DNA of 42,918 nt from Bacteroidales bacterium (lineage in GTDB: Bacteria; Bacteroidota; Bacteroidia; Bacteroidales; UBA7960). Below, piece by piece: positions 1,457 to 4,451 of this stretch. The notes beneath the pieces were generated by a model. It made no database searches, was not told the origin of the DNA, and was given only the letters and a program-made list of their open reading frames with translations. Positions within the stretch are counted from its first letter, which is position 1. The number at the start of each line of letters is the position of its first letter. The translations under genes were made by a program, and so were the position numbers. Where the stretch lies: contig SLCY01000038.1 of the NCBI GenBank assembly GCA_007125585.1, positions 1 to 42,918 of the forward strand, in the 5' to 3' direction.

Positions 1457-2941
1457 ATGGTTTCAGATCTTCTTCCCGACAAAAAACTTCGGTCAATCAA
1501 GGGTAAACTTTTCATTTATTGTTTTCGCAGCCTAATTTTTCTATCTGCCCTGCTGGTATTTTTGTTGTTTGGCAAAGTATATGCTTTCGGTGACCAGTCT
1601 GCCGGAACAAACCCCGCCGACTTATTGAGTTCTTATGTTCAAATCCCCTCCGTGTCGGGTGAAGAGAAAGAAGCCGGTGAGTTTTTTGCCCGGTTTTGCC
1701 GCGACCATGGTCTGCACGTCCATGTGTTTACCGATGAGGAAGACAGTTATAATTTTGCCGCCTCCCTGTATCCCCTCGAAAAAGGAAAACCCAATATTGT
1801 CTTTTTGACACATATTGACGTGGTGCCGGCCGGCGATGAGGATGGGTGGACCCATCCCCCTTTTTCGGGTGAGATAGCGGACGGCATGGTGTGGGGTCGT
1901 GGTGCCATCGACAACAAGGCGATGGGGGTGATGCAGGTACTGGCAATATTGCAGTTTGTGGAGAAGGCTGCTGCGCGGGACTTACCTTACAATGTCAGTC
2001 TTTTGGCTGTATCAGGTGAAGAGACGGGTGGGGATAAGGGCGCCAGGATCATTGCTGAGAAGTTTCTCGGCGAATTGAATCCTGTGGTGGTGTATGGTGA
2101 AGGTGGGGCTGGCATAACGGGCCTTCTCGGCGCTGAACCGGAAAAGCCGGTGTTTGGCCTGGGTGTGGCGCAGAAGCGCAGGATGTTTCTTGCCATAGAG
2201 TCGAAGGTTGAAGCTTCAGGACATGGTTCTGTGCCAAGGAAGCGCTATCCCACCAAGGAGGTTGTTGAGGCCACCGGTGCGTTGCTGGAAGCCAGGCCAA
2301 AGATCACCGTATCGTCGACTGTCAGGGAGACCATGGATCAGTTGGCCAGACATGAGAGAGGGTTCAGGAGGAGGGTGATGCGCAACATTGATTTTTACGG
2401 GCCCTTGTTTGGCCGTTTTGTCCGCAACGACCCTCTCATCGCCTCGATGCTGACCAACACCCTTTCCCTGACCAGCCTGACAAGTGCTGAGGGCGCCTAT
2501 AACCAGATCCCGGCACATGCCCGGGCGGTGTTTGACTGCCGCCTCTTACCGGAAACCGACGAAGACGAATTCCTTGCCCATATACAACGCATTGTGTCCC
2601 CATACGATGTGAATGTTGAGGTGATCCGGGCCAGTCCCGGGACCCCTGTCTCCGATCAGGGTGTTTTTTATAAGGCCATGGAGAACAGTATTAGGGAGGT
2701 TTTTGATGATGCGTTGGTTGTGCCCTTTATGTTTGTCGCCATCAACGACAACCGTTTTTTCCGACGGCAGGGGATCCCTGCTTACGGACTCCTGCCTGCA
2801 ATGATGTCTGAAGAGCTGATGGAGTCCATCCATTATTTTGATGAACGTTTTCCTGTTGACGCCCTCGATAAGGGCATAGAGGTGTATGTACACCTTATCA
2901 GCCAGTTATTGATTCCAATAGAAGAATACAACGAAAATTAG
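1457..2941 (+). CDS. M20-family metallopeptidase/amidohydrolase (PM20D1/carboxypeptidase S-like), membrane-anchored or exported
   Basis: A zinc-dependent amidohydrolase that removes amino acids from peptides or N-acyl-amino acids. I use ATG 1457 rather than the TTG at 1379, giving 494 residues; the extra 26 residues look like untranslated leader. A hydrophobic segment near residues 20-45 is an anchor or signal peptide. M20 zinc-site motifs follow in order: HIDVVPAG (His about 119), WGRGAIDNKA (bridging Asp about 151), SGEETGG (Glu pair about 187-188), and a terminal SIHYFDERF (His about 457). The dimerisation/lid region has GHGSVP. The length, the N-terminal segment and the WGRG.xDNK signature resemble PM20D1 and yeast carboxypeptidase S more than bacterial DapE or PepT. 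Only 7 bases separate it from the GH3 gene, so the two are probably co-transcribed. The substrate is unknown. Confidence 0.88.
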   Translation: MVSDLLPDKKLRSIKGKLFIYCFRSLIFLSALLVFLLFGKVYAFGDQSAGTNPADLLSSYVQIPSVSGEEKEAGEFFARFCRDHGLHVHVFTDEEDSYNFAASLYPLEKGKPNIVFLTHIDVVPAGDEDGWTHPPFSGEIADGMVWGRGAIDNKAMGVMQVLAILQFVEKAAARDLPYNVSLLAVSGEETGGDKGARIIAEKFLGELNPVVVYGEGGAGITGLLGAEPEKPVFGLGVAQKRRMFLAIESKVEASGHGSVPRKRYPTKEVVEATGALLEARPKITVSSTVRETMDQLARHERGFRRRVMRNIDFYGPLFGRFVRNDPLIASMLTNTLSLTSLTSAEGAYNQIPAHARAVFDCRLLPETDEDEFLAHIQRIVSPYDVNVEVIRASPGTPVSDQGVFYKAMENSIREVFDDALVVPFMFVAINDNRFFRRQGIPAYGLLPAMMSEELMESIHYFDERFPVDALDKGIEVYVHLISQLLIPIEEYNEN

Positions 2942-2948
2942 TGTTTTT

Positions 2949-4451
2949 ATGCTTATTTCCACAGGAGCAAAACTATTCGCCAGGTTGAGCAAGTCCCGCT
3001 TCAACCGGTGGTACCGCGATCCTGTCGGCTTGCAGGAAAAGGTGTTTGCACACCTTATCGCCAAAGGCCGGCAAACGGTTTTTGGACGCGACCACCATTT
3101 TGAGGGGTTGGAAGATTACGGGTCATTTAAAAAGCAGGTCCCCATCCGTGATTATGAAGGGATAAAGTCATACATTGACAGGGTGGTGGCAGGGGAGAAG
3201 GATGTGCTTTGGCCCGGTTATCCCATGTATTTTTCAAAGACCTCCGGCACCACCTCTGGCGCCAAATACATCCCCATTACAAGGGAATCCATGCCGTATC
3301 ACGTCCACTCGGCGCGGCATGCCCTGCTGATGTATTTGCTGAAGACCGGCCGCACGGACTTCCTGCGAGGCAGGATGATCTTCATCTCAGGGAGCCCTGA
3401 GCTCGACACCAGCGGCGACATCCCAACAGGGAGGCTGTCGGGGATCTCTCACAGGCATGTGCCGGCATACCTGCGCAGGCGTCGGCTGCCATCCTATGAC
3501 ACCAATTGTATCCCCGACTGGGAAGAAAAACTGGATGCCATCGTTGAGGAGACCAAAGATGAAAACCTGAGCCTGATCAGCGGCATCCCACCCTGGGTGG
3601 AGATGTATTTTGAAAGGTTGCTGGAAAAAACGGGAAAATCGGCGGTTTCTGATATATTTCCCGGGTTCTCACTCTTTGTTTATGGGGGGGTAAACTTTCA
3701 GCCTTATGAGAAAAAATTCTATGAGTTAATGGGAAAGGATGTCCCGTCGCTGGAAACCTTTCCTGCTTCGGAGGGCTTTATCGGCTTTCAGGATGAATGG
3801 CCTTCAGAAGGGTTGCTGTTGATTCCGGATGGGGGTATCTTTTACGAGTTCGTTCCGGCCGGCCGGTTCCATGATGAAGATCCGCCCCGTATGTCACTGG
3901 CCGATGTGGAAACGGGAGTGAACTATGTGATGATACTCAACACCAATGCCGGGCTGTGGGGTTATAATATCGGGGATACGGTGCGCTTCACATCGCTGAA
4001 CCCTTACCGTTTTGTTTCCACCGGCCGCCTGAGCCACTTCACTTCGGCGTTTGGCGAGCATGTGATCGCCCAGGAGGTGGATGATGCGATGACAGAAGCG
4101 GTAAAAGAAACCGGTGCACTGGTTTCGGAATTTCACCTGGCTCCCCTGGTAGATAATCCGGAAGGGTTGCCTTGTCACCAATGGTTCGTAGAGTTCAGCA
4201 AGGAGCCGGAAGAGCTGGAACGCTTTGCCAAAGTCCTTGATGAAGCTCTTCAGAAGAGAAACCCCTATTACAAGGACCTGGTAACGGGCAATATCCTGCA
4301 ACACGCAATGGTGCAAAAAGTCCCGGCCAACACCTTCAAAAAGTACATGAAGTCGATCGGCAAACTGGGCGGACAAAATAAAGTCCCGCATCTGTCAAAT
4401 GACCGTAAGATAGCTGACTGGATATCACAAAACATACATTCCCCCAAATGA
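2949..4451 (+). CDS. GH3 auxin-responsive-promoter family protein (acyl-adenylating acid-amido synthetase fold)
   Basis: Plant GH3 enzymes adenylate a carboxylic acid (auxin, jasmonate) and couple it to an amino acid. This 500-residue protein has the family's three ATP/AMP-binding motifs: KTSGTTSGAKYIPIT (about 95-110), the Glu motif FPASEGFIGF (about 270-280) and NIGDTVRFT (about 340). A C-terminal subdomain carries the conserved GQNKVPHLSNDR near 475. No signal peptide is visible, so it should be cytoplasmic. The acid and amine substrates of bacterial members are not settled. The ATG follows the M20 stop by 7 bases, an unusual juxtaposition of a possible amide-forming enzyme and an amide-cleaving one. 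The name is unrelated to glycoside hydrolase family 3, which also occurs in this window. Confidence 0.9.
   Translation: MLISTGAKLFARLSKSRFNRWYRDPVGLQEKVFAHLIAKGRQTVFGRDHHFEGLEDYGSFKKQVPIRDYEGIKSYIDRVVAGEKDVLWPGYPMYFSKTSGTTSGAKYIPITRESMPYHVHSARHALLMYLLKTGRTDFLRGRMIFISGSPELDTSGDIPTGRLSGISHRHVPAYLRRRRLPSYDTNCIPDWEEKLDAIVEETKDENLSLISGIPPWVEMYFERLLEKTGKSAVSDIFPGFSLFVYGGVNFQPYEKKFYELMGKDVPSLETFPASEGFIGFQDEWPSEGLLLIPDGGIFYEFVPAGRFHDEDPPRMSLADVETGVNYVMILNTNAGLWGYNIGDTVRFTSLNPYRFVSTGRLSHFTSAFGEHVIAQEVDDAMTEAVKETGALVSEFHLAPLVDNPEGLPCHQWFVEFSKEPEELERFAKVLDEALQKRNPYYKDLVTGNILQHAMVQKVPANTFKKYMKSIGKLGGQNKVPHLSNDRKIADWISQNIHSPK

Follow-up and report, generated by a model that had tools for sequence, protein, structure and literature searches.

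A linked pair of M20A-type hydrolase and GH3-type synthetase genes in the Bacteroidales and its possible part in N-acyl amino acid turnover

Organization of the locus

The sequence analyzed here is a 42,918-nucleotide stretch of contig SLCY01000038.1 (assembly GCA_007125585.1; hereafter, the window) from a Bacteroidales bacterium assigned by GTDB to UBA7960, the genome of which comprises 2.57 megabases in 120 contigs. The named relatives of this organism, which carry the isolate names CSSed and T1Sed, are Bacteroidales genomes obtained from metagenomes of sediments, presumably those of soda lakes. The forward strand of the window harbors a gene encoding a 494-residue metallohydrolase of the M20 family (ATG at 1457, TAG at 2939-2941), followed by a gene encoding a 500-residue acyl acid amido synthetase of the GH3 family (ATG at 2949, stop codon ending at 4451). 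A preliminary description of this DNA had reported both genes as adjacent and separated by a 7-base gap, and the coordinates confirm this arrangement, with the first gene ending at 2941 and the second starting at 2949. The features of the locus are as follows.

1457..2941, + strand: M20A-type zinc metallohydrolase (aminoacylase/carboxypeptidase class) with an N-terminal signal or anchor helix, 494 residues (Pfam, NCBIfam, AlphaFold)
1496..1585, + strand: putative N-terminal signal peptide or membrane anchor; helix 14-38, possible signal-peptidase I site VYA/F past residue 43 (model, hydropathy, cleavage site by eye)
1811..2833, + strand: stretch encoding the zinc-site and catalytic residues of M20, namely H119, D121, D152, E188, E189, E215, H256 and H459 (homologue alignment, MsAA residue positions)
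2942..2948, + strand: 7-base spacer TGTTTTT between the M20 and GH3 genes (sequence)
2949..4451, + strand: GH3-type acyl acid amido synthetase, 500 residues, predicted to be cytoplasmic and ATP-dependent (Pfam, NCBIfam, fold)
3240..3266, + strand: GH3 nucleotide motif 1, residues 98-106, TSGTTSGAK, in the region of OlsH S115 (alignment; PMC12493201)
3765..3776, + strand: GH3 nucleotide motif 2, residues 273-276, ASEG (invariant among 31 aligned GH3 proteins)
3951..3977, + strand: GH3 nucleotide motif 3, residues 335-343, GLWGYNIGD, corresponding to GMWSHLIGD in OlsH (alignment; PMC12493201)

The pair is flanked upstream by a subtilase gene and downstream by a saccharopine dehydrogenase-like gene. 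Both lie on the opposite strand, which rules out an operon extended to either of them and restricts the unit to the M20 and GH3 genes. A scan of the locus for promoters and terminators returned no clear excess over shuffled sequences. In the window genome, the two genes probably constitute a two-gene unit expressed as a single transcript, and both look intact on the basis of their active-site residues, their nucleotide motifs and the confident folding of their products onto known enzymes.

Family assignment and predicted location of the two enzymes

The GH3 protein matched the N-terminal, central and C-terminal Pfam domains of the family above their gathering scores (132.7, 52.4 and 75.2 bits), and its AlphaFold model, with a predicted local distance difference test score (pLDDT) of 88, identified plant GH3 enzymes as the closest solved folds. 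Together with the three nucleotide motifs, the domains and fold place this protein in the GH3 family and predict an ATP-dependent amide synthesis activity. Its sole NCBIfam match was the model for OlsH (NF052613), which in Singulisphaera acidiphila generates N-acyl ornithine from a fatty acid, ornithine and ATP (PMC12493201). The window protein shares with OlsH the GH3 domains, the three motifs, a full-length alignment at 408 bits and the prediction that an amino acid is N-acylated at the expense of ATP. In contrast, its score (407.9 bits) falls under the equivalog cut-off of 620 bits, and neither an OlsI-type alpha/beta hydrolase nor an OlsG methyltransferase lies beside its gene, which instead adjoins the M20 and saccharopine dehydrogenase-like genes. 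Orthology with OlsH was rejected on these grounds.

More than 7500 relatives of OlsH have been reported, about 90% of them in the Bacteroidota, and the authors of that work proposed that Bacteroidota GH3 proteins probably use other amino acids, because an amino-lipid route of a known type exists beside them (PMC12493201). The window genome encodes, on contig C25 (L153:15449-17243), a GlsB/GlsA-like pair composed of overlapping, same-strand genes for a GNAT protein (Acetyltransf_5) and an acyltransferase (Acyltransf_2), and the presence of this separate pair implies that GH3 is not required for that known amino-lipid route. Three further GH3 proteins, with 33-38% identity to the one in the window, are encoded in the same genome. 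A GH3 copy is found on C25 itself, and another on contig C95 (L155:6192-11066) is located between two aminoacyl-tRNA synthetase genes, of the class II D/K/N type and the class I E/Q type, with all three on one strand.

The M20 protein matched the Pfam domains Peptidase_M20 (101 bits) and M20_dimer (25 bits) above their gathering scores, and the domain matches of both proteins far exceed chance expectation. Its eight zinc and catalytic residues, arranged in the order H-x-D, D, EE, E, H, H, are invariant among 26 homologues, with the exception of E215 in one of them. The corresponding residues of the aminoacylase MsAA are H91, D93, D123, E157, E158, E185, H226 and H425 (PMC10122368, PMC11511702), and E215 provides the Glu found at the zinc-ligand position of E185. 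In terms of residue positions, as distinct from sequence alignment, the set and order of these residues are identical to those of MsAA and SmAA (PMC10122368, PMC11511702), with near-equal spacing and similar protein length, and the catalytic layout read in this way is that of M20A aminoacylases. The window protein differs from these enzymes in its export helix, in its GH3 partner gene and in a PRK07906 score of 195 of the required 382 bits. MsAA favors short acyl chains, yet it accepts lauroyl-methionine well (PMC10122368, PMC11511702). The window M20 has a helical insertion at about residues 302-332, which may be where an acyl chain is held. By analogy with these aminoacylases, hydrolysis of N-acyl amino acids is the predicted activity of the window M20.

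The preliminary description had termed this enzyme PM20D1-like. The term is only partly apt. An M20A architecture is shared with both PM20D1 and yeast CPS1, as is secretion with the former, but the best curated model was PRK07906 (195.4 bits), ahead of PRK09133 (153 bits) and of the PM20D1-type PRK08262 models, to which we take PM20D1 to belong. The latter yielded 92-132 bits against cut-offs of 503-825, and none of these models reached its cut-off. Both PM20D1 and MsAA can operate in the synthetic direction, and one could hence envisage that the main task of the exported M20 is the extracellular synthesis of N-acyl amino acids from free fatty acids and amino acids, with GH3 making related compounds within the cell. 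An ATP-driven GH3 would leave the cell with little need for such synthesis, and we regard this as the least probable of the readings considered here.

A relationship with the plant hydrolase ILR1, which the preliminary description also mentioned, was not borne out and was rejected, since no M20D model figured among the 25 best NCBIfam models and the closest solved folds to the AlphaFold model (pLDDT 89) are DapE enzymes. In the plant GH3-ILR1 system, one set of amino acid conjugates is handled by both a synthetase of the GH3 family and an amidohydrolase of the M20 family, the latter located in another compartment (PMC8608799). The plant hydrolase, however, belongs to M20D, whereas the bacterial enzyme is of the M20A type and its gene is linked to that of GH3, so that any likeness between the two systems would be a parallel one.

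The AlphaFold model places helix 14-38 of the M20 protein before and outside its catalytic fold, and hydropathy analysis located a peak beginning at residue 25. No lipobox cysteine was found in the N-terminus. A hydrophobic N-terminus is present in 25 of the 26 homologues, and the remaining one may be cut short. The GH3 protein has no N-terminal export segment, and its model begins straight in its fold. The two enzymes are thus predicted to occupy different compartments, with M20 exported or anchored and GH3 cytoplasmic, in line with the initial proposal. Export would also suit an M20 devoted to self-protection or clean-up, which would shield the envelope from damage by destroying surface-active N-acyl amino acids made by the cell or its competitors. 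N-acyl amino acids are indeed surfactants, but no transporter or regulator supports such a role, and we deem it improbable.

Conservation and origin of the linkage

Within the genus, the M20 gene was identified in 15 genomes, and in all 14 cases in which the contig runs past it the GH3 gene comes next, in the same orientation. Among 295 sampled genomes from the order, with the GH3 clade called at E <= 1e-122 and the M20 at E <= 1e-60, GH3 was detected in 12 genomes and M20 in 18. Both were present in 10 genomes, and they are neighbors in every one of these. This co-occurrence was significant in Fisher's test (p = 2e-12 by genome, 1.5e-5 by genus), although these values do not fully remove shared ancestry.

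The M20-then-GH3 order on the same strand is found in families f1, f93 and f106. In family f113 the two genes lie tail to tail, with their 3' ends meeting or overlapping by about 29 bases. The flanking genes are wholly different between families, with genes for DNA gyrase B and a methyltransferase beside the f93 pair and one for a symporter beside that of f113. Adjacency is therefore kept beyond the genus and with changed flanks, as befits a conserved gene pair. The f106 pair (G575, L113) groups within the window's genus in both the GH3 and M20 trees, with different flanks. It may be that the pair was transferred, or that a contig from the same sediment was misbinned, and this case was given little weight.

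These data bear on whether the two genes are merely chance neighbors, with an adjacency that is historical only. The gap between them ranges from 3 to 179 bases over the measured loci, and the relatives G023 and G602 have just one of the two genes, as would be expected in that case. Yet adjacency outlasts a full change of flanks and a change of orientation across four families, making chance a very improbable explanation.

The preliminary description had suggested examining the pair across the Bacteroidota. Its conservation extends to four Bacteroidales families in two arrangements, and it does not encompass the phylum. The GH3 clade was detected in 86 of 396 genomes in a phylum sample, most of them in the same class outside the order. 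Beyond the order, M20 accompanied the clade in a single genome (G218), where the genes are not adjacent. The occurrence of the GH3 clade without M20 in other Bacteroidia, and of M20 without GH3, indicates that neither partner is obligate. Of 20 loci in other Bacteroidia, 8 (L133, L134, L135, L136, L137, L138, L140 and L142) carry the GH3 gene downstream of an M23 peptidase-type gene and in the same orientation, which constitutes another linked pair, and a DUF6909 gene frequently comes next. The GH3 gene is otherwise found near dxr and rseP.

Phylogenetic analysis grouped the GH3 proteins of the same-direction pairs in one clade (support 99/99), and joined the f113 GH3 with the unpaired GH3 of family f101 (100/100). 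A single clade of all paired GH3 proteins was rejected by the approximately unbiased (AU) test (p = 0.003, a value weakened by the choice of the group after the loci were known), and the matching test on the M20 tree was borderline (p = 0.055). The rejection of a single GH3 clade suggests that adjacency probably formed more than once. Two separate pairings are the simplest reading of these results, and an old pairing followed by many losses is the alternative.

Putative function of the pair

The persistence of the linkage in several families suggests that the two enzymes probably act on the same compounds. We assign a probability of roughly 0.5 to the interpretation that GH3 makes N-acyl amino acids, or close amides, and that the exported M20 hydrolyzes compounds of this class, the two forming a turnover unit. 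Following family chemistry and the OlsH precedent, cytoplasmic GH3 would use ATP to adenylate a carboxylic acid, which is probably a fatty acid, and would then N-acylate an amino acid with it. The product would then reach the envelope, where the M20A-type enzyme, given its intact zinc site and export signal, could split the amide, either within the periplasm or at the surface of the membrane, freeing the acid and the amino acid. That both enzymes would meet the same compound is inferred from the linkage of their genes. In part of the family, a symporter encoded upstream of M20 could bring one of the products back.

Several observations weigh against this interpretation. The M20 protein falls under every curated cut-off, and M20 enzymes with such an active site include both deacylases and carboxypeptidases acting on peptides. 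The product would have to cross the inner membrane by a route that the interpretation does not account for. Furthermore, the GH3 clade is present in 83 of the 396 phylum genomes that belong to other families of the same class, nearly all without this M20, and 8 of the 18 order genomes with M20 lack GH3.

The main rival explanation is nutrient salvage, whereby M20 would be a general periplasmic exopeptidase or carboxypeptidase, the symporter would import amino acids and GH3 would build an unrelated membrane amino lipid, with an amino acid in common and no shared conjugate. In agreement with this explanation, six loci of the family (L057, L061, L062, L067, L132 and L129) carry a gene for a sodium:solute symporter (SSF, with about 600-637 residues) immediately upstream of M20 and in the same orientation, the solved structures nearest in fold to M20 include DapE, ArgE and carboxypeptidases, and the M20 gene of genome G557 (L122:7638-10575), which has no GH3 partner, overlaps one for an aromatic amino acid lyase (PF00221). 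The recurring partner of M20 is nonetheless GH3 and not a peptidase, and the Glu at E215 is common to aminoacylases, M20-family dipeptidases carrying Asp at the equivalent position. We therefore consider salvage doubtful, while regarding it as the most serious competitor to turnover of a shared conjugate. A 76% relative of the symporter is encoded in the window genome near the end of another contig (C43:335-2137). No BLAST similarity was detectable between the symporters beside the f1 and f113 pairs, and for this reason a common third component is not claimed.

A more specific form of the turnover interpretation is a two-compartment cycle of conjugation and deconjugation, in which the N-acyl amino acid made by GH3 would leave the cytoplasm as a signal or store, to be switched off or released by the exported M20, in parallel with plant GH3-ILR1 and with a different M20 subfamily. 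A signalling or storage role is possible, and the cycle as a whole appears rather unlikely. If the two enzymes do share a conjugate, they would represent a bacterial counterpart of plant hormone control by conjugation and hydrolysis.

The two enzymes belong to known kinds, their combination is new, and a literature search found no paper describing a bacterial GH3-M20 pair, which is weak evidence of absence given that most subscription journals were outside its coverage. GH3 genes are very widespread in the Bacteroidota. The recurrence of an M20 beside one GH3 clade provides a practical handle on their function, since the substrate range of M20 should reveal the product of GH3.

The loci with M20 and no adjacent GH3 offer further detail. 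In G023, from the same family as the window genome, GH3 is missing between M20 and the dehydrogenase gene, and Gly (GGA) replaces the zinc ligand E215 in M20 (L129:7498-8997), a single case that could be a sequencing error. This fits an M20 losing its task once GH3 is gone. The M20 gene of G557 is preceded by one for a 111-residue secreted protein, and a 46% identical protein is encoded beside the M20 of G446. The G446 M20 (L125:3105-8992, L164:1454-2983) also lies next to genes for ketoacyl synthase, acyl carrier protein-like, LpxL-like acyltransferase, radical SAM and FabZ-like proteins, possibly a lipid gene cluster. About 7 kilobases from it is a GH3 gene that belongs to a different clade and whose product matches the C95 copy at 67%.
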